Origin: Acidobacteriota bacterium | GTDB taxonomy: Bacteria > Acidobacteriota > Terriglobia > Bryobacterales > Bryobacteraceae | Reading direction: 5' to 3' | Length of the DNA: 64,000 bases | Assembly: GCA_947470805.1 (NCBI GenBank) | Contig: CANIVU010000011.1 | Location: 62,001 to 126,000, forward strand | Shown here: positions 2,786 through 37,125 of the stretch, in pieces | How positions within the stretch are numbered: the first letter of the stretch is position 1 | Layout: every line of letters begins with the position of its first letter | Made by a program: the position numbers and the translations under genes | The notes under the pieces: model-generated | What the model was told of the DNA's origin: nothing | What the model saw: only the letters and a program-made list of their open reading frames with translations | The model's database searches: none

Positions 2786-3641
2786 ATACCCAGACATCTC
2801 GGTATACATCGAGGCCATCGAGCGCCACGCGCTCGGCCATGCCTTGCAGCAGGTGAAGCTCACCACCCCCTTCCTCCTCCGGACTGTCCAACCGCCGATC
2901 GCGTCCTTCGAACGCCAGACGCTGATCGGCGTCAAACGGGTCGGCAAGCGCATCGCTCTCGGCTTCTCGAGCGGCCAGTGGATGGTGGTCCATCTAATGA
3001 TCGCCGGGCGTCTCCACTGGAACAACAAGCCCCAGGCGCTGGCCACTTGGGTGTTCGACAGCGGCACGATGACCCTCACCGAAGCCGGGTCCAAGCGCCA
3101 GGCCTCGCTGCATCTATTTGAAAAAGAATCAGATATCGCTTCCGTGGACCCGGGCGGATTGGAGGTCTTCACCACGACAGAAGCCGAGTTCGCCGCCCGC
3201 TTCACCGCCGAAAACCACACACTAAAGCGCGCCCTGACCGATCCCCACATCCTCTCCGGCATCGGCAACGCCTTCAGCGACGAGATTCTCCACCACGCCC
3301 AACTCAGCCCGGTGACGCTATCGCAAAAGCTCACCCCCGCCGAACTGGCCCGCCTCCGCGATGCGATCTTCGATCGGCTCAACTACTTCACCGACCTCCT
3401 CCGCCAGCAGACCGGCGCCGGCTTCCCGGAAAAGGTCACCGCCTTCCGCCCGGAGATGGCCGTCCACGGCAAGTTCAAACAACCCTGTCCCCGTTGCTCT
3501 ACACCTGTACAGCGAATTGTGTATGGCGCACACGAAACCAATTACTGCCCCACCTGCCAGACCGGCGGAAAGCTGCTCGCCGACCGGGCTCTCTCCCGCC
3601 TCCTGGGCAGGGATTGGCCCAAGACCCTGAAAGAAGCGTGA
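2778..3641 (+). CDS. Fpg/Nei family DNA glycosylase
   Basis: A 287-residue base-excision repair enzyme (DNA glycosylase/AP lyase). ATG 2778 gives MPEYPD, placing the catalytic Pro2 and Glu3 correctly; anything further upstream would destroy the active site. Then come the lysine in VGKR, the helix-two-turn-helix segment ILSGIGNAFSDEI, and a C-terminal zinc finger with CPRC and CPTC. The finger hairpin reads GAHETNYCPTC, so the arginine usual in Fpg seems to be replaced by another residue, which may affect lesion preference. It starts inside the end of the hydrolase gene (8-base overlap). Whether it acts on 8-oxoguanine (MutM) or oxidised pyrimidines (Nei) is not decidable here. Confidence 0.88.
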   Translation: MPEYPDISVYIEAIERHALGHALQQVKLTTPFLLRTVQPPIASFERQTLIGVKRVGKRIALGFSSGQWMVVHLMIAGRLHWNNKPQALATWVFDSGTMTLTEAGSKRQASLHLFEKESDIASVDPGGLEVFTTTEAEFAARFTAENHTLKRALTDPHILSGIGNAFSDEILHHAQLSPVTLSQKLTPAELARLRDAIFDRLNYFTDLLRQQTGAGFPEKVTAFRPEMAVHGKFKQPCPRCSTPVQRIVYGAHETNYCPTCQTGGKLLADRALSRLLGRDWPKTLKEA

Positions 3642-3648
3642 AAAAAGC

Positions 3649-3984
3649 ATGCAAAACTGCACCAAATGTGGGGCAAAAGGTACACAAAATGCATCATTTT
3701 GCAGCGTTTGCGGTGCAGTTTTTGGACCGCTGACGGCCATTCCTGATAATCCGAAATCATTAATCGCCCTCGGACTGGGCGCCGCCGGCTTCCTGATCTG
3801 CGGTCCGTTCACCGGAATCCCTGCTTTTCTGATGGCCCGATCCATCCTCGCCGGCCCGGTTTCCCCCCGCGATGCGGTACTAGGTAGGCTGGCCTGGTGG
3901 CTCAGCCTAGCCGCTTGCGCCATCTGGTTTTTGATGATCGCCTTCTTCGCCATTGTCACCGGTTCCGGGTGGAGTTTGGTCTAA
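3649..3984 (+). CDS. Small zinc-ribbon membrane protein
   Basis: A 111-residue protein. It opens with a zinc ribbon, C-x2-C at residues 4-7 and C-x2-C at about 18-21 (FCSVCG), followed by two hydrophobic segments: one around SLIALGLGAAGFLICG and one near the C-terminus around WWLSLAACAIWFLMIAFF. The pattern matches zinc-ribbon plus DUF4190-like membrane proteins. It follows the glycosylase by seven bases and is probably cotranscribed. Function unknown. Confidence 0.7.
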   Translation: MQNCTKCGAKGTQNASFCSVCGAVFGPLTAIPDNPKSLIALGLGAAGFLICGPFTGIPAFLMARSILAGPVSPRDAVLGRLAWWLSLAACAIWFLMIAFFAIVTGSGWSLV

Positions 3985-4336
3985 GTCCCGATTTGCGAAC
4001 ATGTTAACGGAAAAACGTAAACGGGAGTGTACAATTGCCCCCTCCTGAGGGCCCGGCTAGTGGCAAAACCTTAAGTTCAATCTTTCCAATCACCTACGCC
4101 ATGTTGTGGATTAATTGAGGAAAACCACAATTAGTAGTTGACCGGGTTCGAAATACCGCTGTATCCTGTAGTTCGCTGGCGAGATACCGCAGTTGTTGGT
4201 AGTTCGTCCCGGGTAGTCTCTCCCGGTTCCTCTCGTCGGCCCGCTTTCCGGTTTCTCCATCCTGTAGATAGCTATAAAAGGTTGGGGGCCGATTCTTGTT
4301 TTTTGCGTTCCAAATCCTCCCCCAAGGTGAATTCAG
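3985..4336 (+). other. Upstream region of nrdAB
   Basis: About 350 bases without a gene, less GC-rich than its surroundings. It holds a spaced inverted repeat TTGTGG (4104-4109) / CCACAA (4125-4130) and a possible promoter (listed separately). I looked for NrdR-box pairs and did not find a convincing match. The plus strand changes from C-rich to G-rich around here. Confidence 0.4.
4138..4167 (+). promoter_or_regulatory. Candidate sigma-70 promoter for nrdAB
   Basis: TTGACC at 4138-4143 and TATCCT at 4162-4167 are separated by 18 bases, 170 bases before the nrdA start. The match is partial and untested. The inverted repeat TTGTGG/CCACAA ends just upstream and could be an operator. Confidence 0.3.
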
Positions 4337-6757
4337 ATGGCGACGACGGCACAGCAAATGAGTATTGGTAACACGCCGACAGCGCAACAGTTGTTTCCGG
4401 ACGTCCGGCCGCAGGTGCCGGAGGCCGCGATGCGTGTGAAGAAGCGCAATGGAGCTTTGGAACCCGTTGATGTTTCCAAGATCATCCGGGCGGTGCAATT
4501 GTGCGGCGCCGGCTTAACCCAGGTCGACCCGATGCGGATCGCGGTCAAGACCATCGGTGGACTTTACGATGGGTCCACGACACGGGAACTGGATCAGCTG
4601 AACATCCAGACCGCGGCATCGTTGATTGCCGAAGAGCCGGAATACTCGCGCCTGGCGGGCCGGTTACTTGCGAATTTTGTGGCGAAGGAAGTGGCGGCGC
4701 AGAACATCTATTCGTTCTCGCAGTCGATTGAGGCCGGTTATAAGGGCGGTCTCATCGGCGATGAGTGCTACGAGTTTGTGAAGGCAAACGCCCGCAAGCT
4801 CAATAGCGCCGTTGATGACCGGAACACCGATCTGTTCGAGTATTTCGGCATTCGCACCGTCTACGATCGGTACCTGTTGAAGGACCCGGAGACGCGCGAC
4901 GTGATCGAGACGCCGCAGTACTTCTTCCTGCGCGTGGCGTGCGGGTTGAGCGTGAACGTCCAGGAAGCGATTGAGTTCTACAAGCTGATCTCGGCGCACG
5001 ACTATATGCCGAGTTCGCCGACCCTGTTCAACTCCGGCACCAAGCATCCGCAGATGTCCAGCTGTTACCTCCTCGATTCCCCCGAGGACAACCTGGAAGG
5101 CATCTACGAACGCTATAAGGACGTCGCGATGCTGTCGAAGTTCGCCGGCGGGATTGGCTTGGCGTACCACCGGATTCGCGCGCGCGGTTCGCTGATCCGC
5201 GGCACCAACGGCCGTTCGAACGGCATTGTTCCGTGGCTGAAGACGCTCGATAGCTCGGTCTGCGCGGTGAACCAGGGCGGGAAACGGAAGGGCGCGGCGT
5301 GCGTCTATCTGGAGCCGTGGCATGCCGATATCGAGGAATTCCTCGAGTTACGCGATAACACCGGCGACGAGGCGCGGCGCACGTATAACCTGAATCTGTC
5401 GAACTGGATTCCCGACATCTTCATGAAGCGCGTGGATGAAGACGGCGTGTGGTCGCTGTTCGATCCGAAGGTGACGCCGCACTTCACCGATCTGTACGGA
5501 CCGGAGTTTGAGGCTGCCTACATCGAGGCCGAATCCAAAGGGCTGTTCATGCGCCAGATGAAGGCGCGCGACATGTACGCCCGGATGATGAAGACACTGG
5601 CGGAAACCGGCAACGGCTGGATGACCTTCAAAGACGCCTGTAACTTGAAGAACAACCAGACGGGCCAGGACAACAACGTCATTCACCTTTCGAACCTGTG
5701 CACGGAGATCACCGAGATCACCAATCAGGGCGAGACGGCGGTCTGCAACCTGGGTTCGGTGAATCTGGCCCGGTATGTGAACGGCGGCGAGTTCGACTTC
5801 GACAAGCTGGCCTACACGGTGCAGTTGGCGGTGCGATTCCTGGACAAGGTCATCGACATCAATTACTACCCGACCAAGGAAGCCGGCGTTTCGAACGCCA
5901 AATGGCGTCCCGTTGGCTTGGGCATCATGGGGCTGCAGGACGTCTTCTTCCAGTTGCGTTTGGCGTTCGACAGTGAGAAGGCCAAGGCCCTGTCGCGGCA
6001 GATTCAGGAAGAGATCTACTACTCGGCGATGGTGACGACGATTGAACTTGCCGAGCAGAGCGGCCCGTTCGCGGCGTTCGAAAAAACCCGTGCGGCCAAG
6101 GGCACCTTCCAATTCGACCTGTGGGGCGTGACGCCTTCGAAGCCCGAGCGGTGGGAAGCGTTGCGGCCGCGGATGATGAAGTCCGGCATGCGGAATTCGT
6201 TGATGATCGCGATTGCGCCGACGGCGACGATTGCCTCCATCGTTGGCTCCTACGAGTGCATCGAGCCGCAGATTTCGAACCTGTTCAAGCGCGAGACGCT
6301 GTCGGGCGATTTCATTCAGATCAATCGCTACCTGGTGAATGAGCTGAAGGCGTTGGGGCTGTGGAACGAAGACCTGCGCAACCGGGTGAAGATGGGCGAG
6401 GGTTCGGTGCAGAACATCGACGAGATCCCCGCTGACATCAAGGACATTTACCGGACGGTGTGGGAAGTGCCGATGCGGGCGTTGATTGACATGGGCGCCG
6501 AGCGGGGGCCGTACATTGACCAGAGTCAGTCGTTGAACTTATTTATTGAGAGTCCGACGATCGGTAAGGTGTCATCTATGTATATGTACGCCTGGAAAAA
6601 GGGGTTGAAGACGACTTACTATCTTCGTTCCCGGCCGGCGTCGAAGATTTCCAAGGCGACAGTGCCGGTGCCCGCTTCGGTGTCGGCTCCGGTTCCGGTG
6701 GCGCAGGCCATCGCTTGTTCGCTCGAAAACCCTGAGAGCTGCGAGGCCTGCCAGTAG
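4337..6757 (+). CDS. nrdA: Ribonucleoside-diphosphate reductase, alpha subunit (class I)
   Basis: The 806-residue large subunit reduces ribonucleoside diphosphates to deoxy forms for DNA synthesis. An ATP-cone allosteric domain (about 35-125, starting VKKRNGALEPVDVSKI) precedes the ten-stranded barrel. Active-site elements include MSSCYLLDSPEDN, the NLCTEI motif (Asn, Cys, Glu of the radical site) and CNLGSVNL. The C-terminal tail ends CSLENPESCEACQ, supplying the CxxC pair that re-reduces the active site. ATG 4337 follows AAGGTGA at a good distance. The nrdB gene starts 15 bases downstream, so the two form an operon. No inteins or breaks seen. Confidence 0.95.
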   Translation: MATTAQQMSIGNTPTAQQLFPDVRPQVPEAAMRVKKRNGALEPVDVSKIIRAVQLCGAGLTQVDPMRIAVKTIGGLYDGSTTRELDQLNIQTAASLIAEEPEYSRLAGRLLANFVAKEVAAQNIYSFSQSIEAGYKGGLIGDECYEFVKANARKLNSAVDDRNTDLFEYFGIRTVYDRYLLKDPETRDVIETPQYFFLRVACGLSVNVQEAIEFYKLISAHDYMPSSPTLFNSGTKHPQMSSCYLLDSPEDNLEGIYERYKDVAMLSKFAGGIGLAYHRIRARGSLIRGTNGRSNGIVPWLKTLDSSVCAVNQGGKRKGAACVYLEPWHADIEEFLELRDNTGDEARRTYNLNLSNWIPDIFMKRVDEDGVWSLFDPKVTPHFTDLYGPEFEAAYIEAESKGLFMRQMKARDMYARMMKTLAETGNGWMTFKDACNLKNNQTGQDNNVIHLSNLCTEITEITNQGETAVCNLGSVNLARYVNGGEFDFDKLAYTVQLAVRFLDKVIDINYYPTKEAGVSNAKWRPVGLGIMGLQDVFFQLRLAFDSEKAKALSRQIQEEIYYSAMVTTIELAEQSGPFAAFEKTRAAKGTFQFDLWGVTPSKPERWEALRPRMMKSGMRNSLMIAIAPTATIASIVGSYECIEPQISNLFKRETLSGDFIQINRYLVNELKALGLWNEDLRNRVKMGEGSVQNIDEIPADIKDIYRTVWEVPMRALIDMGAERGPYIDQSQSLNLFIESPTIGKVSSMYMYAWKKGLKTTYYLRSRPASKISKATVPVPASVSAPVPVAQAIACSLENPESCEACQ

Positions 6758-26157: not shown

Positions 26158-27564
26158 TCAGGGTCGCGTGGCCACGGCGAACAGCGTCAACCCAGGCCAG
26201 GGAAGAATCGGATCCAGCCGCCGCCAAATCCACACCGTCTTGTCAAACAGCTTCAACGTAAACCGGTTCAGCCGCTGACTGCCGAACAGCTTACCGCTTA
26301 CCAGCCAAGCCGCATAGGCCATCGAGTTGAATCGCTGAATCGATGTCACCTCAAGGCCCGCATCGGCGATCAGCCGGCCCAGCTCGCCTTTGTCATAACG
26401 GCGCTTATGTCCCAGCGTCCGATCCATATTGCAATAGAGCGCCTGGGAACTGGGAACGATCACCAGCAGTTTCCCCCCGGGCGCGAGCTTCGAAGCCAGG
26501 TTCTTCACCAACGCCGCCGGATCGCTAGAAAACTCCAGCACCCCTGCCGCAATCACCGTGTCAAAATCGGACGGCAATTCGGCGCATGCCTTGGCGTCTT
26601 CCGGATCCAGATTCCGGACCTGCACATTGGGCGTCCGCAGGAACCGGTTGCGCAAAGCGTGTAAATAAAGCGGATCCTTTTCGGCGGCCAGATACAGCTG
26701 CCGTTTCCCCATCATCCGCCCGACTAGATTCCCAATCCCGGCCCCAACCTCCAGCACCCGATCCCCCAGCTGCGGCCGCAACATCGCGGTCAGCCACGCC
26801 ACGTACTGCGGCGTACCGGTGATGTTGTGCAGATGCCCGCGGCCGTACGGCTCCACATAGAGATCGTCGATCAGCCAGAAGTAAATGATCGCGCCCAGCG
26901 CCTTGATCCCGTCCTTCCACCCGATCTTCTTGCCCTCTTCAAACGTCCGTCCGTGGTAGCTGATCGGTACTTCGTAAATCCGCAGCTTCCGCTTGGAGGA
27001 CTTCATCGTGATCTCCGGCTCGAAGCCGAAGCGATTGGAGCGGATCGGAATGCTCTTCAACAGATCGGTACGGAAAACTTTGTAGCAGGTCTCCATATCG
27101 GTCAGGTTCAAATTGCAGAACATGTTGGACAGAATGGTCAACGTCTTGTTGATCATCGAGTGCCAGAACGGCAACACGCGGGACTGCTCGGCGGCCAGAT
27201 AGCGGGAGCCGAAAACGGCGTCGGCGTGGCCATCGAGCAGCGGCCGGAGCAGCCGGGAATACTCGTTCGGGTCGTACTCCAAATCGGCGTCCTGCACCAG
27301 GCAGAAGTCCCCGGTGGCGTGGGCAATGGCGGTCCGAATGGCCGCGCCCTTCCCTTCGTTGACGGGCTTCTTTATCAGCCGCATCTCCGGGTGCGCGGCC
27401 ACGATGCGATCAAGAATTGCACTTGTGCCGTCGGTGGAACAGTCGTCCACCAGAATAATCTCCCGTTCGATGCCGTCCGGGAGCGGTGCTTCCATCACCT
27501 TGGCCAAGCTGGTTTCCACCACCGCCCGTTCGTTATAGACCGGGACAAGTATCGATAATCGCAT
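26158..27564 (-). CDS. Fusion of a family 2 glycosyltransferase and a SAM methyltransferase
   Basis: 468 residues. The first half (about 1-230) is a dolichol-phosphate-mannose-synthase-like GT2: LSILVPVYNE, VDDCSTDGT, NEGKGAAIR, the DADLEYDP metal motif, GSRYLA and ETCYKVFR. The second half (about 250-468) is a class I methyltransferase: VLEVGAGIGNLVG, AAEKDPLYL, FDTVIAAGVLEFSSDP and GGKLLVIVPSS. No membrane helices, so a cytoplasmic or peripheral enzyme, perhaps glycosylating a lipid carrier and methylating the sugar. No stop or frameshift separates the halves. Immediately follows the GMC pair on the same strand. Confidence 0.85.
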   Translation of the reverse strand: MRLSILVPVYNERAVVETSLAKVMEAPLPDGIEREIILVDDCSTDGTSAILDRIVAAHPEMRLIKKPVNEGKGAAIRTAIAHATGDFCLVQDADLEYDPNEYSRLLRPLLDGHADAVFGSRYLAAEQSRVLPFWHSMINKTLTILSNMFCNLNLTDMETCYKVFRTDLLKSIPIRSNRFGFEPEITMKSSKRKLRIYEVPISYHGRTFEEGKKIGWKDGIKALGAIIYFWLIDDLYVEPYGRGHLHNITGTPQYVAWLTAMLRPQLGDRVLEVGAGIGNLVGRMMGKRQLYLAAEKDPLYLHALRNRFLRTPNVQVRNLDPEDAKACAELPSDFDTVIAAGVLEFSSDPAALVKNLASKLAPGGKLLVIVPSSQALYCNMDRTLGHKRRYDKGELGRLIADAGLEVTSIQRFNSMAYAAWLVSGKLFGSQRLNRFTLKLFDKTVWIWRRLDPILPWPGLTLFAVATRP

Positions 27565-27576
27565 GGGCTCCTTGGG

Positions 27577-28272
27577 CTAAACGATGCGGAACGGGCTCCG
27601 GTTGAAGGCGTAGTCGATGGCCTCCTGCGGAACCTCGTACTTGGAAATCGCGACGTTGCCGATGTAGTTGACGTCCTTAACGCCGATCGGGCTGGTGTAG
27701 AACGCATCGACGATGAGCTTCCGTGCCCAATCGAAAAACTTCACGCCCGGCGCCAGATCCGTGCCGGGCTTCACCGTATAACCCGCGAAGCTCTTATACT
27801 GCGGCGCCCGGGCGAACAACGCCTGCTCGGCGCCCTGTTCGCGGACGACCCGCTCGGCCGCAACGATGTCGTCCAGCATCGCCGTCTGCTCGGCCGCCGT
27901 GGCGGAGACAAACTCCTTGCCAGCGCGCTTTCGCATCTCGGCGTCGAACCATGACAAGCCACCGGTGAAAATCACCGCCAGTTCCTGGTTCTGGCTGCAC
28001 AGCAGATCGATAAACTGCGGCGCGCCCGCGTCAACGGCGCTCCCGGAGCGATCATCGGCCGGCACCACGATCTCCGAAAGCCGCGTAATCGTCGCCCATT
28101 CGTGCGCGTTGAACTGCTTCGGCGTGTACTTGCCGCCCTTGGTGTCGGCCGCGGCGGCGCTGTGGACATGTTCAGCCGCCTGCGCGTCAAGTTCCCGCAG
28201 TGATCCGGCAACCGTCAGGCTCAATGCAATCTTTCGCAGCGCGTCACGCCGTGTGGAGGTGGAGTTAGACAT
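27577..28272 (-). CDS. Tat-exported gluconate 2-dehydrogenase subunit 3-like protein
   Basis: 231 residues. The N-terminus STSTRRDALRKIALSLTVAGSL is a twin-arginine signal. The body shows the Gluconate_2-dh3 pattern: EWATITRLSEIVVPADDRSG, AGAPQFIDLL, AQTAMLDD-like segments and the final YAFNRSPFRI. Subunit 3 accompanies a GMC flavoprotein and carries it through the Tat pathway. It overlaps the GMC gene by eight bases, confirming they form one enzyme. Confidence 0.85.
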   Translation of the reverse strand: MSNSTSTRRDALRKIALSLTVAGSLRELDAQAAEHVHSAAAADTKGGKYTPKQFNAHEWATITRLSEIVVPADDRSGSAVDAGAPQFIDLLCSQNQELAVIFTGGLSWFDAEMRKRAGKEFVSATAAEQTAMLDDIVAAERVVREQGAEQALFARAPQYKSFAGYTVKPGTDLAPGVKFFDWARKLIVDAFYTSPIGVKDVNYIGNVAISKYEVPQEAIDYAFNRSPFRIV

Positions 28273-29983
28273 TACCTTTCCTCATTTCTTCAGCCAAATG
28301 ATCGGCCGCCCGCCAGGCGAACGCGTTGATGGTCAGCGTGGGATTCTTGTCGGGATTGGAGACGAAGAACCCGCCGTCCACCACATAGAGGTTCTTCACC
28401 TCATGTGCCTGGTTGAACTTGTTCAATGCCGAGTCGCGTTTGTCGTTGCCCATCCGCACGGTGCCCACTTCGTGGATAATCGTGCCGGGCGTGGAAATGC
28501 CGTCTGCCTCCCGCTGCGCCGCGCTCAACCCGGTAACCCGTCCGCCCATCCCAGTGATGATGTCGGCGAACGTCTTTTCCATGTGGCGCGCCTGCTTCCA
28601 CTCATAATCGGACCATTTGAAGTGGAACTTTAGCACCGGAATGCCCCAGCGGTCGACAACGTTGCGATCGATCTCGCAGTAGCTGTGAATGTTCGGAATC
28701 ATCTCGCCACGGCCGGCGAAGCCGATCGAGGCCCCGTACTCCTTCCGCGCCAATTCCTTGATGCCCTTGCCATACCCCGCCCGGCGCGCCGCGCCCTGGA
28801 ACGAGCCAATGCCCGGCATCCCATAGCCGCCGCCAATCTCCACGTGATACCCGCGCGGGAAATCCAGTTGATGATGTTTGTCCCACTTCCACCACGGCAT
28901 GTACAAATGCGCGCCGCCGAAGCCGTCAGTGTTGTAATGCGGCATCCCTTCCATCGCCGGTACGTAACCGTTCAACCCGAAGCCCACCGTGTCCATCAGG
29001 AACCGGCCCACCACGCCCGACGTGTTCGCCACGCCGTTCGGGAACTCCTTCGTCTTCGAGTTCAACAGAATACGGGCCGACTCGCAGGCGCTCGCCGCCA
29101 GCACCACCGCGCGGGCATGAATGACCTTTTCCCGTCGCGTGTTCTTGTCGATATAAACAACGCCCGTCGCCTTGCCATTCCCATCGGTGAGCACCTCGCG
29201 CACCATCGCGTTATCGAACACCTTCAACTTGCCCGACTTCATCGCCGGGAAAATCTCCACCTGCGAACTCGAATACGCCGACGCCGTCTGGCACCCGCGC
29301 CCGCATTGGCCGCAGTAGTGGCACGGGATGCGCCCCTTCATCGGTTCGGTCACAATCGCGCGGCGATTGGGGATACAGGCGATCCCTAACTTATCGCAAG
29401 ACTTCTTAATCAGTAACTCATGCACCTTCGGCGGCGGCGGTTTCAGGAACTGCCCATTCGGCGCGCTCGGCATGTCGTTATGATTCTCGCCAGTTACTCC
29501 GACAAAGCGCTCGGCCTTGTCATAATACGGCGACATCTCTTCATAACTTACCGGCCAGTCATAGCCCAACCCGTCTTTGGAATACGGCTTGAAATCGTAC
29601 GGCGAAAAACGGAACGACATTCGCCCGTAGTGGTTGGTGCGTCCGCCCAGGATGCGCGAACGGAACCAGCGGAACTCGCTGCCCTCGCCGACGGTGTACG
29701 GCTCACCGTCGAGTTCCCAACCGCCCGAGGTCGTCGAGAAGTAGCCAAACGGCTTCCCCTTGCCGAAATAGGCCGCGCCGCCGTCCTCGGCGCCCCGGTG
29801 CGGGACGTCGTAGGGCATCTGGTGCTCTTTAAATTCCTTGGCGACGTTCAGCATCGGGCCTGCTTCCAGCAGGGCACACTTGATGCCATGTTCGGTCAAA
29901 ACACGAACCGTCGTACCGCCTCCGGCGCCGGAGCCGACCACGACAACGTCAAACACTTCAGGGCTGCGCTGTACCTGTGCCAT
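28265..29983 (-). CDS. GMC-family flavin oxidoreductase (large subunit)
   Basis: 572 residues. FAD-binding VVVGSGAGGGTTVRVL at about 14-29 and ALLEAGP, then GRTNHYGRMSFRF, a Cys cluster CHYCGQCGRGC (about 215-225), HARAVVLAASACESARIL, and the C-terminal GMC signature with HEVGTVRMG and the NPTLTINAFAWRAAD region. It has no signal peptide but its partner has a Tat signal, so it is probably exported by hitchhiking. It likely oxidises a sugar or sugar derivative (gluconate-2-, fructose- or glycoside-3-dehydrogenase type) and passes electrons to a cytochrome or quinone. Probable first gene of the sugar operon running to pgeF. Confidence 0.88.
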   Translation of the reverse strand: MAQVQRSPEVFDVVVVGSGAGGGTTVRVLTEHGIKCALLEAGPMLNVAKEFKEHQMPYDVPHRGAEDGGAAYFGKGKPFGYFSTTSGGWELDGEPYTVGEGSEFRWFRSRILGGRTNHYGRMSFRFSPYDFKPYSKDGLGYDWPVSYEEMSPYYDKAERFVGVTGENHNDMPSAPNGQFLKPPPPKVHELLIKKSCDKLGIACIPNRRAIVTEPMKGRIPCHYCGQCGRGCQTASAYSSSQVEIFPAMKSGKLKVFDNAMVREVLTDGNGKATGVVYIDKNTRREKVIHARAVVLAASACESARILLNSKTKEFPNGVANTSGVVGRFLMDTVGFGLNGYVPAMEGMPHYNTDGFGGAHLYMPWWKWDKHHQLDFPRGYHVEIGGGYGMPGIGSFQGAARRAGYGKGIKELARKEYGASIGFAGRGEMIPNIHSYCEIDRNVVDRWGIPVLKFHFKWSDYEWKQARHMEKTFADIITGMGGRVTGLSAAQREADGISTPGTIIHEVGTVRMGNDKRDSALNKFNQAHEVKNLYVVDGGFFVSNPDKNPTLTINAFAWRAADHLAEEMRKGNV

Positions 29984-30015
29984 TCCGACATTCTACCGCC
30001 CTTCGGGCAGCCCGG

Positions 30016-30255
30016 TTAAAACAGAAGCGTCTGCCGCTCGTCAGCCGACGCCGCGGCCGCCTTCGGACGAACCGGGTCCATCTCATTGCGCGCCTTCCGG
30101 ATCATCTCCATCAGCCGCGCATGCGTGTCGTGAATCTCCAGCAGCAACTCGCAACGCTTGCAGCCGCCACGGATTCCGCCCCGGCCGTCATTCGGATCAA
30201 ACCCCGGATGCCGGTCGCAACGCCCTTTGAAACTGACTGTTCCGAGCTTTACCAT
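30016..30255 (-). CDS. Small Cys/His-rich protein
   Basis: 79 residues from ATG 30255. A putative zinc site: CDRHPGF with GGIRGGCKRCELL, i.e. C-x2-H and C-x2-C about 20 residues apart, followed by a helical stretch (HDTHARLMEMIRKARNEMD). Looks like a real small metal-binding protein, divergent from the YdcF-like gene by 37 bases. Family not recognised. Confidence 0.5.
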   Translation of the reverse strand: MVKLGTVSFKGRCDRHPGFDPNDGRGGIRGGCKRCELLLEIHDTHARLMEMIRKARNEMDPVRPKAAAASADERQTLLF

Positions 30256-30292
30256 GCCAGAATTGCCAACTATCGTATCATTCTCTGCATAG

Positions 30293-30994
30293 ATGCCGAC
30301 TCCCAATGCCGTCATTGTCGCCGGGCATGCCATCTGCACCGATCCCGCTCAGCCCCTCGACGAAGCCAACTGGATCCTCCTCCCCTTCCAACGCAACGAA
30401 GTCCCCTGCTACATCGGCCACATCGAAGCCGGCGTCCGCGCCGCCGCCGCCGACCCCGATGCGCTCCTCGTCTTCACCGGCGGCTACTCCCGCCCCGGCG
30501 CCGGCCCCCGCAGCGAAGCCCAGTCCTACTACTGGATCGCCGATCACTTCGGCTGGTTCGGCCACCCCGAAGTGCGCAACCGTGCTCTCACCGAAGAGTT
30601 CGCCCGGGACTCTTATGAAAACCTGCTCTACTCCATCTGCCGCGTGCGCGAATACTCGGGCGCCTATCCCGGCCACGTCCATTTCGTAAGTTGGGAGTTC
30701 AAACGCGAACGGTTCGACTTACACCGCAGTACCATGTGCTGGCCCGCTAAACGATTCACTTACATCGGCGCCAATAACCCGCCCGACTTACAACAAGCCA
30801 TCGAAGCCGAAACTCGCAACCGCAGCGCCTACGTAGCCGACCCCTACTCCAGTTCCCCGGAATTCCGCGCCAAGCGCGACGCGCGCAACCCCTACCGCCG
30901 CTCGGCCGGCTACCTGCTCCACTGCCCCGAACTCGCCCCACTCATCGAGCACGCGGGCCCGGCGTTCTACGATGGCCCTCTGCCGTGGGAATAG
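30293..30994 (+). CDS. DUF218/YdcF-like protein
   Basis: 233 residues. Starts NAVIVAGHAICTD, then LLVFTGGYSR, SEAQSYYWIA, RDSYENLLYSICRVRE and HVHFVSWEFKRERFDLH, the ordered pattern of the DUF218 (SanA/YdcF/ElyC) fold. No membrane segment, unlike ElyC or SanA, so a cytoplasmic member. YdcF binds SAM in vitro, but the physiological role of the family is unclear. The next gene starts within its last codons. Confidence 0.75.
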   Translation: MPTPNAVIVAGHAICTDPAQPLDEANWILLPFQRNEVPCYIGHIEAGVRAAAADPDALLVFTGGYSRPGAGPRSEAQSYYWIADHFGWFGHPEVRNRALTEEFARDSYENLLYSICRVREYSGAYPGHVHFVSWEFKRERFDLHRSTMCWPAKRFTYIGANNPPDLQQAIEAETRNRSAYVADPYSSSPEFRAKRDARNPYRRSAGYLLHCPELAPLIEHAGPAFYDGPLPWE

Positions 30995-31389
30995 CAATCC
31001 GCCTGGCCGTTCTCCTCCTCCTCTTCGGCGTGCGCTACGCTTGGCGTCCCGCGCCCGCGCGCGGCCTCGCCGTCCAAATCCCGCAAACGCCCACGCCCTG
31101 CATCGATGGCGCCTCTGGCCATCGTCTCCACGTCCTCGCCAACGGCGCCGTCCAAATCGACGGCGTCACTGCCCAACTCCCCGCGACTCTGAAACAGCTC
31201 TACGCCAACCGCGCCGAACGCGTCCTCTTCCTCACCGCCGAACCCGCCACCACAATGCAAACCGTCGCCACCGTCATCGACATCGCCGCCGCACAAATCG
31301 ACGTCATCGCCATCGTCCCGCCCTCGCTCGCCCACGCCACCTGCTGGACCGTCCACCAACCCGCCCGCAGCCGCGCGAGCACCCAATAG
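30985..31389 (+). CDS. ExbD/TolR-like small membrane protein
   Basis: 134 residues from a GTG at 30985 that overlaps the preceding gene by ten bases. One N-terminal membrane helix (about 3-18, IAIRLAVLLLLFGV) is followed by a periplasmic domain resembling ExbD/TolR: LHVLANGAVQIDGVTAQL, RVLFLTAEPATTMQTVATVIDIA, IDVIAIVPPS. These proteins energise outer-membrane processes together with ExbB/TolQ and TonB/TolA, but no such partner is visible here, and the family's membrane Asp is not obvious in the helix. Could be a diverged orphan. Confidence 0.5.
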   Translation: MGIAIRLAVLLLLFGVRYAWRPAPARGLAVQIPQTPTPCIDGASGHRLHVLANGAVQIDGVTAQLPATLKQLYANRAERVLFLTAEPATTMQTVATVIDIAAAQIDVIAIVPPSLAHATCWTVHQPARSRASTQ

Positions 31390-31485
31390 AACCCGGCCAC
31401 GACTCAAAAGCCGCGCCGGTTAAATCCCAGTTAAATCACCCCCGCCAACGAGACGCCGCCCTTCCATTTCGGTGTTAATAGGTCC

Positions 31486-33987
31486 ATGGCATCGAAGACG
31501 CAAAAGTCATTTCTCTTCCTCTATCTACTAACTTTCGCGGCCCCGGCGTTCGCCCAAACAACCACCCGCCCGGTGATCGATTCCGTCATTACCGCCAGCG
31601 CTTTCGGCGGTTACAACGCCCTCGCCGCCCCCGGCTCTTACATCGAAATCTACGGCTCCAATCTCGCCGGCACCACCCGCGGTTGGTCCACCGCCGACTT
31701 CAATGGCTCAATAGCCCCCACCTCGCTCGATGGCGTCACCGTCACCGTCAACGCCACGCCCGCCTTCGTCAATTACGTCAGCCCGCGTCAGCTAAACGTC
31801 CAGATTCCGGACACCATCCCCGCCGGCGGCGCGGTCAACGTCGTCGTCACCTATCAGGGCCAATCCAGTGCCCCGGCCTCACTCACCATCTCCGCCCAGC
31901 AGCCCGGAATCCTCGCCCCAGCCAGCTTTAAAGTGGGCGCCACCCAGTATGTTGCCGCTGTCCATTCCGACACCGGCGCCTTCGTCAGCAATGGAAACAT
32001 CCCAGGCGTCGCCGCCGCTCCCGCCAAGCCCGGCGAGACGCTCATCCTCTACGGCACCGGCTTCGGCACCGTCTCGCAAACCAAAGTAGCCGGCCAAATC
32101 GCCTCCGGCGCAGCCTCTCTTTCCAGCCCCTTCACCATGACCATGGGCGGCGCCGCCACCACCGTCTCCTACGCCGGCCTCGCCCCCGGCCTCGTCGGCG
32201 TCTACCAGTTCAACGTCGTCGTCCCCCCGGCCGTCTCCTCGGGCGATGTACCGGTTGTCTACACCCTCAACGGCCTCGCCGCCACGCGCCAGACGCTCTC
32301 CATCTCCGCCTCCGCCGGCACCGTCAGTGCCCCGGGCGCGCCTACAGCCGTCTCCGCCACCAGCGGCAACGCCAGCGCCACCATCTCCTTCACCGCGCCC
32401 GGCGCCAACGGCGGCTCCGCCATCACCCGCTACACCGCCACCTGCACCGCCGCCAATAGCGCCCTCACCGGCACCGCCGCCGCCAGCCCCATCCTCGTCA
32501 GCGGCCTCTCGAACGGTGTCTCCTATCTCTGCACTGTCTCGGCCACCAACAGTGCCGGCACCGGTCCGGCCTCCGCCGGCGTCACCGTCACCCCGGTCGC
32601 CTCCACCACCGGCGGTACCGTCACCAGCACCCTCTGGATCCCCCCGGCCATTTCCGGTACCACCTTCAATCTCACCCTCGCCAAGGCCACCAAACAGTAC
32701 CGTACCGGCGCCACCACCAACACCTACGGCTACAATGGCAGCGATTTCTGGGGACCCACGCTAATCATGAACAAGGGCGACAAGGTGCAGATGAACGTCA
32801 CCAATAACCTCTCGGAATCCACCACCACTCACTGGCACGGCTTCCACATTCCGCCGGACACCGACGGCGGCCCGCACCAGCCCTTCGGCCCTGGCGAAAC
32901 CTGGTCGCCATCCTTCGAAATCAAGAACAACGCGGGCACGTATTGGTACCACCCGCACCTCCACGAAAAGACCGCCGAACAACTCACCTACGGTGCCGGC
33001 GGCATGATCATCATCCGCGACCCCGCCGAAGCCGCGCTCACCCTGCCCCGCACCTACGGTGTTGACGACATTCCTCTCGTCCTCACCAGCCGCCGCTTCC
33101 TTACCAACAATCAATTCAACATCAACCCGGCCAACGGCGCCTACGGCGACTTCGCCCTTACTAACGGAACCCTCGACGCCCAAACCACCCTGCCCAAACA
33201 GTCCGTTCGCCTGCGCATCCTGAATGCCGAAATTGAACGCGCCTATAACCTCGGCTTCAGCGATGGCCGCACGTTCTACGTCATCGGCAACGACGGCGGT
33301 CTGCTCAACGCCCCTGTCCCCGTCACGCGCGCCAAACTCTATGTCGGCGAACGCCTCGAAATCCTTGTCGATCTCTCGAAGGACAACACCGGTGCGCAAG
33401 TCGATCTGCAGGCCTACAATGGCGGCCAGACCTTCGGCTTCCCCGGCGGCGAACCCGGAACCACCGGTGCCTTCGGCAGCCTGCTGAATAACACCACCTT
33501 CCGCGTCCTCCGCATCAACGTCGGCGCCGCAACCGCCGGCGCCATCACCGCTCTTCCCGCCAAGCTGATCGAAAACACCTACTGGACCTCCGCTGACGTC
33601 ACCAACAAACGCACCGTCACCATCACCGACAAAGGGCCGGGTACCCCATTCAACTTCGACAATCTTGCCTTCGACATGGACAAGATCAATCAAACCGTCG
33701 CCCTCGACGCCGTCGAACAATGGACCATCGTCAACGACCGCGTCTTCAGCCACTCCTTCCATATCCACGACGTCCAGTTCAAAATCGTCTCTCGCAGCTC
33801 CGGCAAAATCGAAGACTATGAACAGGGCTGGAAAGATACCGTCGCCGTTCCCCTCGGCGAATCCGTTACCTTCATCGCTAAGTTCGATGACTTCGCCGAC
33901 GTCGTCAATCCCTTCAGGTACCACTGTCATTTCTCCAATCATGAAGATGAAGGAATGATGGGTCAGTTCCTGGTTATTAAGAAGTAA
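31486..33987 (+). CDS. Multicopper oxidase with N-terminal Ig-like and Fn3 domains
   Basis: 833 residues. Signal peptide about 1-23 (ending AAPAFA|Q). About 28-275 is the TIGR03437-type Ig-like region common in Solibacter exported proteins (GSYIEIYGSNLAGTT, VNYVSPRQLNVQIP, ILYGTGFG). About 283-370 is a fibronectin type III domain. About 385-833 is a multicopper oxidase: HWHGFH (about 449), WYHPHLH (about 488), HSFHIHDVQF (about 756) and HCHFSNHEDEGMM (about 816), giving all type 1, 2 and 3 copper ligands. Probably oxidises Cu(I), Fe(II) or phenolics outside the cell. First of a tight three-gene operon with mbnP- and mbnH-like genes. Confidence 0.9.
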   Translation: MASKTQKSFLFLYLLTFAAPAFAQTTTRPVIDSVITASAFGGYNALAAPGSYIEIYGSNLAGTTRGWSTADFNGSIAPTSLDGVTVTVNATPAFVNYVSPRQLNVQIPDTIPAGGAVNVVVTYQGQSSAPASLTISAQQPGILAPASFKVGATQYVAAVHSDTGAFVSNGNIPGVAAAPAKPGETLILYGTGFGTVSQTKVAGQIASGAASLSSPFTMTMGGAATTVSYAGLAPGLVGVYQFNVVVPPAVSSGDVPVVYTLNGLAATRQTLSISASAGTVSAPGAPTAVSATSGNASATISFTAPGANGGSAITRYTATCTAANSALTGTAAASPILVSGLSNGVSYLCTVSATNSAGTGPASAGVTVTPVASTTGGTVTSTLWIPPAISGTTFNLTLAKATKQYRTGATTNTYGYNGSDFWGPTLIMNKGDKVQMNVTNNLSESTTTHWHGFHIPPDTDGGPHQPFGPGETWSPSFEIKNNAGTYWYHPHLHEKTAEQLTYGAGGMIIIRDPAEAALTLPRTYGVDDIPLVLTSRRFLTNNQFNINPANGAYGDFALTNGTLDAQTTLPKQSVRLRILNAEIERAYNLGFSDGRTFYVIGNDGGLLNAPVPVTRAKLYVGERLEILVDLSKDNTGAQVDLQAYNGGQTFGFPGGEPGTTGAFGSLLNNTTFRVLRINVGAATAGAITALPAKLIENTYWTSADVTNKRTVTITDKGPGTPFNFDNLAFDMDKINQTVALDAVEQWTIVNDRVFSHSFHIHDVQFKIVSRSSGKIEDYEQGWKDTVAVPLGESVTFIAKFDDFADVVNPFRYHCHFSNHEDEGMMGQFLVIKK

Positions 33988-33991
33988 CTCC

Positions 33992-34750
33992 ATGCGGTTC
34001 TTACTGGCCATGTTGCTAACTGCAATCGGATGGGGCGGGGAACCCGTCTCCATCCGGTTCCGGGCCGTCGCCGGTGACGCCCCTCTCCTCTGCGGCCAAA
34101 AGTACGGGGGCATCGGCGTCACCGGCTCCACCATCACCCCGCGCGATTTCCGTTTCTACATTCATGATCTGCAACTGATCAACGAACAGGGCAATCCCGT
34201 CCCCGTCGAACTCGATCAGGACGACAAATGGCAGACCGGCAACGTCACCCTCCTGGACTTTGAAAACGCCACTGGCTCCTGCCGCAACGGCTCCCCGGAC
34301 ATGCACACCGCCGCCACCGGCCAGGTCCCTCCCGGCAAATACCGCGGCCTCCGTTTCACCCTCGGCGTCCCGGTGGACAAGAACCACACGGACCTCATGG
34401 CCATGCCCTCACCGCTCAACCTCACGGCCCTTTCCTGGGTCTGGAACGCCGGCCGCAAGTTCGCCCGCCTGGACTTCTCCAGCACCGGGAACCCCCGCGG
34501 CTACCTGGTCCACCTCGGCAGCACCGGCTGCGTCGATGGCCGCTGCGCCTCGCCCAATCGCTTCGAAATCGCACTCCCCACCTTCGACCCCTCCCGCGAT
34601 ACCGTCCTCGCCGACCTCGCCGCCCTTCTCAAAAACGTCAACGTCGACGAACCCGCCAAGGACGGCGCCGGCTGCATGTCCTCGCCCGAAACGCCCGCCT
34701 GTGGGCCCATCCTCGCTAACTTCAAAACCGCCTTCTTCCGCCTGCCATGA
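33992..34750 (+). CDS. mbnP: MbnP-like copper protein (metallo-mystery pair, four-Cys)
   Basis: 252 residues, signal peptide about 1-17. The family hallmark stretches are visible: RFYIHDLQLINEQGNPV, DKWQTGNVTLLDFENATGSC, GKYRGLRFTLGVPV, LTALSWVWNAGRKF and GCVDGRC. Conserved Trp at 80, 149 and 151 and several Cys (34, 97, 180, 185 and later) are present. In the studied methanotroph pair, MbnH oxidises a Trp of MbnP to kynurenine and the product protein binds copper; which Trp applies here is not settled, W80 being one candidate. Starts four bases after the multicopper oxidase gene and overlaps the MbnH gene by four bases. Confidence 0.88.
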   Translation: MRFLLAMLLTAIGWGGEPVSIRFRAVAGDAPLLCGQKYGGIGVTGSTITPRDFRFYIHDLQLINEQGNPVPVELDQDDKWQTGNVTLLDFENATGSCRNGSPDMHTAATGQVPPGKYRGLRFTLGVPVDKNHTDLMAMPSPLNLTALSWVWNAGRKFARLDFSSTGNPRGYLVHLGSTGCVDGRCASPNRFEIALPTFDPSRDTVLADLAALLKNVNVDEPAKDGAGCMSSPETPACGPILANFKTAFFRLP

Positions 34751-36204
34751 GATACCTGCTCCTCCTCTCCCTTTCCCTCGCCGCACTGGCCCACGACGCC
34801 AACGGCCGCACCAGCGCGCCCCTCGAATCGCGGCGCATCCTGAACCCGCTAAAGCCGAACGAGCAGCGCCTCTTCAACGCCAGCGCCGTCTTCACCCGGC
34901 TCTGCTCCCAGTGCCACGGCGAAGACGGCAAATCAAAGACGAAGCAGGCCGCCACCCTGCCCACCCGCCCCACCGATCTCACCAACTACCTCATGAAGCA
35001 AATGAAGGACGGCGAGATCTTCTGGATCGTCACCAACGGCGTCGTCGGGAAGATGCCGGCATTCTCTCCGCAACTCACGGAAGAGCAGCGCTGGGAACTG
35101 GTCTTCTGGGTCCGCGAACTTCGCACCCGCCAGCTCTACAAGGAGCGCATCCAGCTCGGTACTTACAAATGGAAACTCCCTCCCGGCTTCCCCTATCCCA
35201 ACGTACCTTCCACCAACCTCATGACCGCCGCCAAAGTCGAACTCGGCCGCCATCTCTTCTACGATCGCCGTCTCTCCCTCAACCAGACGCAGTCCTGCGC
35301 CACCTGCCACCAGCAGGCCCGCGCCTTCACCGACGGCAAACCGCGCGGCGTCGGCTCCACCGGCCAACACCACCCGCGCGGGTCCATGAGCCTCGTCAAC
35401 GTTGCCTATAACACCGTCCTCACCTGGGCCAATCCCAACATCAGAAAACTCGAAGAACAAGCCCTCGCCCCGCTCTTTGGCGATCATCCCGTCGAGCTCG
35501 GCCTCACCGGCAAGGAAGACCTCCTGCTCTCCCGCCTCCAGGCCGACCCGTGCTACAAATCGCTCTTCCCCGCCGCCTTCCCCGAAGAAGCCAATCCCTT
35601 CACCATCGCCAATCTCACCCGTGCCATCGCCTCCTTCGAACGCACCCTCCTCTCCGGCGATTCTCCTTACGACGCCTACCGCCGCGGCGATGATCCCGAT
35701 GCCATCTCCCCAGCCGCCAAGCGCGGCGAAACGCTCTTCTTCAGCGAACGCCTGGAATGTTTCCACTGCCACGGCGGCTTCAACTTCACCGGCACCCTCG
35801 ACTACCTCGGCAAAGGCATCGCCGAAGCCGAGTTCCACAACAACGGTCTCTCCCTGGACGCCGGGCTTTTTGAATTCACCCGCCTCGAAGAAGACAAGGG
35901 CCGCTTCAAAGCCCCCACCCTCCGCAACATCGCCCTCACCGCTCCCTACATGCACGACGGCCGGATCAAAACGCTCGATGCCGCCATCGACCACTACCGC
36001 GCCGGCGGCGATCCAGCCAACCCCAACAGAAGCGAGTTCATCAAGCCTTTCAAGCTAACCACTGCCGAAAAGGCCGATCTCCTCGCCTTCCTCGAAAGTC
36101 TCACGGACCCCTCCATCGCTACCAACCCGCAATGGTCCGATCCCTGGCCTCCGCGCCGCAGCCGGATGACGCCGTCACCGGCGCCCGCAAGGTATCGTGA
36201 ATAG
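34747..36204 (+). CDS. mbnH: MbnH-type MauG-like peroxidase with an extra fused cytochrome c
   Basis: 485 residues, signal peptide about 1-15. Three CXXCH haem sites: CSQCH (53-57), CATCH (184-188) and CFHCH (338-342). The last two, with RHLFYDRRLS, SMSLVNVAYN, SGDSPYDAYRRG, GRFKAPTLRNIALTAPYMHDG, form the usual diheme MbnH/cytochrome-c-peroxidase core. The first belongs to an added class I cytochrome c domain (about 38-125) with a likely axial Met in GKMPAF. Known MbnH proteins that I recall are diheme, so the third haem may be an electron inlet or outlet. ATGA overlap with mbnP; the LysR gene follows without a gap. Confidence 0.9.
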   Translation: MRYLLLLSLSLAALAHDANGRTSAPLESRRILNPLKPNEQRLFNASAVFTRLCSQCHGEDGKSKTKQAATLPTRPTDLTNYLMKQMKDGEIFWIVTNGVVGKMPAFSPQLTEEQRWELVFWVRELRTRQLYKERIQLGTYKWKLPPGFPYPNVPSTNLMTAAKVELGRHLFYDRRLSLNQTQSCATCHQQARAFTDGKPRGVGSTGQHHPRGSMSLVNVAYNTVLTWANPNIRKLEEQALAPLFGDHPVELGLTGKEDLLLSRLQADPCYKSLFPAAFPEEANPFTIANLTRAIASFERTLLSGDSPYDAYRRGDDPDAISPAAKRGETLFFSERLECFHCHGGFNFTGTLDYLGKGIAEAEFHNNGLSLDAGLFEFTRLEEDKGRFKAPTLRNIALTAPYMHDGRIKTLDAAIDHYRAGGDPANPNRSEFIKPFKLTTAEKADLLAFLESLTDPSIATNPQWSDPWPPRRSRMTPSPAPARYRE

Positions 36205-37125
36205 GTGGAATGGCTCAATTACCATCACCTTCTCTACTTCTGGGCGGTGGCCAAAGAAGGAAGCGTCACCCGCGCCTGTGAACGTCTGCGCCTAGCGCAA
36301 CCAACCATCAGCGGGCAGCTCAAGGTCCTGGAAGAAACACTCGGCGAAAAGTTGTTCGTCAAATCCGGGCGCGGCTTGGTGCTCACCGAAGTGGGCCAGG
36401 TGGTATTCCAATACGCCGAGGAGATCTTCGGCATCGGCCGTGAGTTGCAGGATGTTCTGAAGGGGCGCCCCCGCGGCCGCCCGCTCCGCCTCCTCGCCGG
36501 TATCTCCGATATGGTCCCGAAGTTGATCGCCTACCGCATCCTCCAACCCGCCCTCACAATGCCCGAGCCCGTCCAACTCGTGTGCGAAGAAGATGCCGCC
36601 GAACGCCTCCTGACGGACCTCGCAGAGCACCGCTTGGACGTTGTCCTTTCCGACGTCCCCATCACCGCCGCCACCGGCGTCAAGGCCTTCAATCACCTCC
36701 TCGGCACCTCCGCCGTCACCTGGTACGGCGCGCCCGAACTCGCCACCCGCTACCGCAAAGGTTTTCCCAACAGCCTGAACGGCGCGCCCGTTCTCCTTCC
36801 CAGTCAGGGCTCCCTCCTCCGCCGCTCGCTCGATCACTGGTTCGACGTCCGCGGCATCCGCCCCGTCGTCGCCGGCGAATTCAAGGACAGCGCGCTCATG
36901 AAAGCCTTCGGCCAGGCCGGCGCCGGTGTCTTCGCCGCCCCCAACGCCATTGCAAAAGAGATCCGCGCCCAGTACCGCTGCGGCGTGATCGGCCTGGCGG
37001 AGTCCGTCACCGAAAGCTACTACGCCATCTCCGTCGAACGGAGGCTCAAGCATCCGGCCGTCGCCGCCATCTGCGAGGCCGCCCGCGGCCAGCTGTTTGC
37101 GCACTCCGCAACACATCGGAAATAA
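36205..37125 (+). CDS. LysR-family regulator, NhaR type
   Basis: 306 residues. GTG 36205 directly follows the TAG of the mbnH-like gene; MEWLNYHHLLYFWAVAKEG is the usual beginning of NhaR proteins. Winged helix at about 5-65 (EGSVTRACERLRLAQPT, GQLKVLEETLGEKLF), effector domain after that. NhaR classically responds to sodium, but here it is the last gene of the copper/haem operon and most likely controls it. No clear operator was recognised upstream of the operon. Confidence 0.85.
   Translation: MEWLNYHHLLYFWAVAKEGSVTRACERLRLAQPTISGQLKVLEETLGEKLFVKSGRGLVLTEVGQVVFQYAEEIFGIGRELQDVLKGRPRGRPLRLLAGISDMVPKLIAYRILQPALTMPEPVQLVCEEDAAERLLTDLAEHRLDVVLSDVPITAATGVKAFNHLLGTSAVTWYGAPELATRYRKGFPNSLNGAPVLLPSQGSLLRRSLDHWFDVRGIRPVVAGEFKDSALMKAFGQAGAGVFAAPNAIAKEIRAQYRCGVIGLAESVTESYYAISVERRLKHPAVAAICEAARGQLFAHSATHRK

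Follow-up and report, generated by a model that had tools for sequence, protein, structure and literature searches.

MbnP and MbnH, known together as the "metallo-mystery pair" (TIGR04052/TIGR04039, genome property GenProp0940), are represented by PDB entries 7l6g (MbnP-type) and 6e1c (MbnH-type di-haem enzyme), which we take to be proteins of Methylosinus trichosporium OB3b. Work by Manesis and colleagues in PNAS in 2021 is said to show that MbnH turns the first Trp of a WxW motif into kynurenine, thereby enabling copper binding. A kynurenine at a copper site together with a co-transcribed di-haem peroxidase is also described for MopE/SACCP and CorA/CorB of methanotrophs in one report (PMC3912023); according to another, MbnP has no marked similarity to MopE/CorA (PMC3621798), and a third states that MbnPH-like genes occur in copper operons (PMC9426467). 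Here we analyze a stretch of 64,000 nucleotides (the window) from a soil-type Acidobacteriota bacterium of the Bryobacteraceae (GCA_947470805.1, contig CANIVU010000011.1, positions 62,001 to 126,000; the genome has 8.7 Mb, a reported completeness of 100% and a contamination of 3.1%), in which the genes for MbnP and MbnH are preceded by that of a multicopper oxidase (MCO) and followed by that of a LysR regulator. We consider it rather likely, judging from sequence comparison, that the first three of these genes form an exported copper-protein cassette (MCO, MbnP and cytochrome c-MbnH), probably gained as a block just ahead of a lysR gene already resident there, in which MbnH would mature MbnP.

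The four open reading frames (ORFs) lie on the forward strand at 31486-33987 (MCO, 833 aa), 33992-34750 (MbnP, 252 aa), 34747-36204 (MbnH with a fused cytochrome c, 485 aa) and 36205-37125 (NhaR-type LysR regulator). The first two are separated by 4 bp, the second and third overlap by the 4 bp ATGA, and the fourth follows without a gap. This layout is as given in a first-pass annotation, and so are the families, which we assigned with Pfam and NCBIfam profiles judged against curated cut-offs: an MCO with TIG/Soli_cterm and fn3 domains, MbnP, MbnH and an NhaR-type LysR (NF008284, 252.6 bits, cut-off 219). Sec-like leaders, judged by eye, are present on the parts of the presumed electron pathway; they suggest export, though not a location at the surface.

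The linkage of the first three genes recurs. Of 257 genomes of the order to which the window belongs, 19 have MbnP (18 of them over the cut-off), and in six of these 19 a Soli-fn3-MCO lies directly upstream of MbnP and is followed by cytochrome c-MbnH (the window, L148, L150, L151, L152 and L153, all tightly packed); at the other 13 loci no MCO was seen in the stretch fetched (3.0 to 20 kb). When the order was searched with the whole MCO, 10 of the 257 genomes had a match; in seven it covers the oxidase with over 800 bits, and in the remaining three the Soli-fn3 part only. All seven of the former genomes have MbnP, adjacent in six and on another contig in G409, a co-occurrence to which independence would assign a probability of 3.7e-9; this figure overstates the case, the genomes being related and five of the seven belonging to one genus. 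The linkage in six genomes disfavors a chance adjacency of MCO and MbnP.

In a sample across the phylum MbnP occurs in 11 of 396 genomes, and in the 10 neighborhoods other than that of the window MbnH is adjacent to or fused with MbnP every time, with no match to the MCO and LysR queries. The oxidase core matched in 10 of 376 genomes of the phylum sample, the window included, with no other match above 43% identity. A collection scan found an MCO in three loci (L039, L042 and L046) among the best 80 of 464 MbnP relatives, and these apparently are the loci of three of the order genomes. In two further phyla, that of a Cupriavidus genome (G650) and that of a Polyangiaceae metagenome-assembled genome (G651), 20 of 398 and 76 of 282 genomes have MbnP, and MbnH was present in 15/18 and 17/20 of the neighborhoods fetched, respectively; neither an MCO nor a cytochrome c was found there (0/38 each), some of the contigs being short, so that neighbors may be cut off. 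Plasmids, which were searched with MbnP only, gave matches on 11 records, the best at 40.4% identity. The six MCO loci form one clade in both the MbnH (96/79) and the MbnP (86/74) tree, with moderate support. The coupling of MCO, MbnP and MbnH is, as far as gene neighborhoods tell, real and recurring, and in these samples restricted to one clade. Of the linkage originally proposed for all four genes, the part concerning MCO, MbnP and cytochrome c-MbnH is supported, in six of the 19 genomes of the order that have MbnP; membership of LysR is not supported.

The position of LysR is best judged from a sister genome, G492 (75% complete), which has the window's LysR in two contig pieces at 95% and 89% identity. 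On its contig C583 LysR is immediately preceded by the orthologue of window 30985-31389, and those of 30293-30994, 28265-29983 and 27577-28272 lie further upstream (flank identities 66-99%), and the genes downstream, from 37241 on, are likewise common to both genomes. When the G492 locus L165 was aligned with the window by blastn, blocks were obtained at 27434-31353 (88.1%) and 36178-36809 (84.7%), and between them lie 29 bp in G492 versus 4,824 bp in the window; the stretch 31354-36177 is thus without counterpart in the sister species, either as a gained cassette or through loss in G492.

The initial proposal, that all four genes constitute one operon, with an electron pathway outside the cell that is linked to copper and controlled by LysR, draws on the zero gap between mbnH and lysR and on their common strand. 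We regard it as very improbable, because LysR together with both of its flanks exists without the cassette in G492; LysR as an ancestral operon member was rejected on the same ground. Moreover, G493, G479 and G491 have relatives of LysR (73-74% identity) near which, in the stretches fetched, there is no relative of the window's MCO, MbnP or MbnH, and the window's LysR, used as a query, finds no match in the other five MCO cassettes, whereas in L042 and L151 a response regulator and a histidine kinase adjoin the operon. On this comparative evidence LysR is a bystander, a resident backbone gene outside the cassette, and the cassette-free site illustrates how a zero-gap neighbor can pass for an operon member without being one. 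The same site could in principle have arisen by loss, the cassette being ancestral there and deleted in G492 so as to leave a 29-bp scar, with no horizontal gain at all; a single cassette-free site has been seen, and the composition of the cassette is like that of its flanks. We consider this unlikely, and gain of the cassette as a block is favored, because the whole MCO gave no match in the other 18 genomes of the genus, just two of which have MbnP, each time in a non-MCO context, and because in their trees the window's MbnH and MbnP fall together with proteins from MCO cassettes in other genera and not with the congener G491. The 3' end of the window's mbnH also speaks against deletion: its last 8 codons lie in sequence common with G492, upstream of LysR, and the enzyme is without the CusF-like domain found in its relatives (see below). 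Block gain in front of a resident lysR has several points against it, too. Most of the weight is carried by one cassette-free site in a 75% complete assembly resembling a metagenome-assembled genome; conservation of the LysR leader does not extend to the more distant congeners G493, G479 and G491; GC content shows no clear difference between the cassette (0.632) and its flanks (0.611 and 0.628); the clade supports given above fall under the star level of the tool; measured by path length, the window's MbnH has two non-MCO rows as its closest neighbors; the MCO gene tree does not resolve as a test of congruence, the CueO branch being too long; and the MCO search of the order scored three candidates per genome shown, that of the oxidase core across the phylum four at most. 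As for traces of the event itself, the only repeat at the cassette ends is a 10-bp direct repeat (31355 and 36121), which is not placed on either side of the insert and could have arisen by chance, and a Pfam scan of ten neighboring proteins, in which no search was aimed at such genes, revealed no transposase or integrase.

The oxidase invites an alternative of its own, namely that it is a CueO-type cuprous oxidase serving copper tolerance that came to lie next to MbnPH by chance or for joint regulation by copper. CueO is indeed the best NCBIfam model for the window's MCO (NF008205, 353.7 bits), CueO-like enzymes are its best PDB matches, and the context is one of copper. In the alignment with CueO all 12 columns of type 1, 2 and 3 copper ligands are identical. 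However, the score stays below the CueO cut-off of 525, and the residues that we take to form the Cu(I) substrate site of CueO, M355, D360, D439 and M441, correspond in the window's MCO to a gap, a gap, R752 and F754. In none of the eight homologues aligned, the window's included, are these residues conserved or the Met-rich insert present, an analysis of the site on which the CueO type was rejected; the 440-aa MCO core contains 6 Met as opposed to 29 in whole CueO. Given in addition that linkage in six genomes speaks against chance placement, we find a CueO-type role improbable. The domain order also sets the protein apart, with a signal-like leader, in which no twin-arginine motif was found by eye, followed by Soli_cterm/TIG (residues about 45-273), fn3 (285-368) and the three-domain MCO (394-831).

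The features required for the known MbnH/MbnP chemistry are present in the predicted proteins: the WxW motif and the two conserved His of MbnP and a complete MbnH domain. MbnP scores 245.7 bits against TIGR04052 (cut-off 140) and is a relative of PDB 7l6g (E 1.1e-34). Its WxW lies at 149/151, the conserved His are at 132 and 174, and Met 229 is present; each of W149 and W151 is W in 92 of 93 distinct aligned sequences, the remaining one having a gap, and the first Trp of this motif is reported to become kynurenine in the characterized protein. Described originally as a four-Cys protein, MbnP in fact has six, all in invariant columns of an 11-sequence alignment, and its C-terminal end is shorter than in the ten aligned relatives. 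Of 92 sequences compared, 86 retain Met 229, the window's among them, and four of the six exceptions are MbnP proteins of the six-member MCO clade, the other two being L036 and L087. Five of the six sequences without Met 229 have a Met two residues before WxW (position 147); a swap of Met between 147 and 229 was considered and dropped, as the association was not significant (92 sequences, Fisher p = 0.22).

MbnH matches TIGR04039 over its full length (profile 1-336 of 336) with 431.3 bits (cut-off 362.85) and PDB 6e1c with E 4.8e-83. The triheme character ascribed to it is borne out by CxxCH motifs at residue 53, in the N-terminal cytochrome c, and at 184 and 338, in the MbnH enzyme domain. 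The fusion to cytochrome c is not confined to this locus: it recurs in Acidobacteriota loci without MCO (no MbnH match was present on the contigs of the non-MCO loci L138 and L141). What does distinguish the window's enzyme from its relatives is the C-terminus, where their cytochrome c-MbnH ends in a CusF-like copper domain (PF11604). This domain is carried by the other five enzymes of the MCO clade and is missing from that of the window; the simplest reading is that it was probably lost at the cassette junction. The non-MCO locus L140 is without it as well. Two Met positions of the domain (xAM and xMEF), which are presumed metal ligands, are both kept in all nine non-MCO proteins of the order that have it, whereas in the five domains of the MCO clade the second Met has become Arg every time and the first is lost in four. 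These counts, like that for Met 229 of MbnP, come from one clade and do not represent independent events.

Taken together, we propose that this lineage probably acquired the cassette in one piece, immediately ahead of the resident lysR. By analogy with the characterized family, MbnH would oxidize Trp 149 of MbnP to kynurenine, thus creating a copper site, and the fused cytochrome c would be its electron partner. The MCO would be the oxidase or a copper client of the system, a weaker step of the model, its weakest point being what the MCO oxidizes. Since the MCO is without the CueO Cu(I) site, and since the clade has lost Met ligands elsewhere, it may have turned the system away from Cu(I) and towards Cu(II) or some different substrate. 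A more far-reaching version, which we offer only tentatively and hold to be doubtful, is that the MCO was built into the kynurenine-copper system of one Acidobacteriota clade with a change of chemistry to Cu(II) or to oxidation with copper and O2, and that the unit is transferable; it draws on the loss of presumed Cu(I)-binding Met from the CusF domain (in the window, of the whole domain) and, in four of six MbnP proteins, from position 229, and on the missing Cu(I) site of the MCO.

A role in copper handling is further supported by the context of related loci. With an Fe/Mn superoxide dismutase as query, 7 of the 13 non-MCO loci had a match (including one match about 6 kb away and one in the broken L154) versus none of the six MCO loci, and a small CusF-like ORF was found in 5/13 versus 0/6. 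L139 carries SCO1, PepSY_TM and a TonB-dependent receptor as well, and a CusF-like lipoprotein and TonB-type receptors are found among the relatives' loci. L154 itself (3017-5806, reverse strand, in the congener G479) has its MbnP and MbnH matches broken up among several frames that overlap, as a locus in decay or with assembly faults would.

Several other features deserve mention. Two copies of GTTAAATC, 11 bp apart (31419-31437, forward strand), lie upstream of the MCO gene within the cassette and are a possible regulator site, with a spacing that resembles that of OmpR-type sites; the motif was not seen in the upstream stretches of four relatives. The window's genome has further MbnH/MauG-like di-haem genes on contigs C1, C2 and C14 (L011, L012 and L013), which score 266, 248 and 144 bits, under the MbnH cut-off. 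In other Acidobacteriota, single ORFs combine cytochrome c, MbnP and MbnH (L028, 6960-9332, reverse strand), MbnP and MbnH (L034, 8146-10260, forward strand) or cytochrome c and MbnP (L029, 7778-9061, forward strand), fusions that suggest that the three proteins work together. Finally, a Soli(-fn3)-PEBP-YHYH protein and an ORF of 183-220 aa form a recurring pair in L151, L152, L190, L191, L192, L193, L195 and L196, adjoining the MCO cassette in the first two and lying elsewhere in the other six; in L042, the single copy scanned, the shorter ORF has no match in Pfam, and in L196 it is fused to its partner.

The kynurenine-dependent copper family spans several phyla, and the variant described here bears on its role outside methanotrophs: a copper oxidase that uses oxygen has been added, presumed copper ligands have been lost at other places, and the whole seems to move as a unit. 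It also offers natural contrasts, between the clade with the MCO and the clade without it and between CusF domains with and without Met. In the literature searched, some of it available in part, no description of an MCO linked to MbnPH was found, a mention in Manesis 2021 being possible. With respect to the known systems, the window's pair agrees with MbnP/MbnH in that both proteins exceed the curated cut-offs, their genes are adjacent with a 4-bp overlap, and WxW and the His are kept; it differs in that an MCO is added, a cytochrome c is fused to MbnH and the CusF-like domain of MbnH relatives is absent. The methanobactin paper, in its available part, names no MCO beside MbnP/MbnH (PMC3621798), whereas the window's pair is MCO-linked. 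To MopE/CorA the likeness lies in the kynurenine-copper site beside a di-haem peroxidase, as described in PMC3912023, the window's counterpart being predicted from sequence. With CueO the oxidase shares the three-domain fold and the same 12 copper ligands, and it differs from it by an identity of 34% in the core, by the missing Cu(I) substrate site and Met-rich insert and by the N-terminal Soli-fn3 module. Set against all of these, the linkage of an MCO to MbnP/MbnH would appear to be a new feature on a known kynurenine-copper system.

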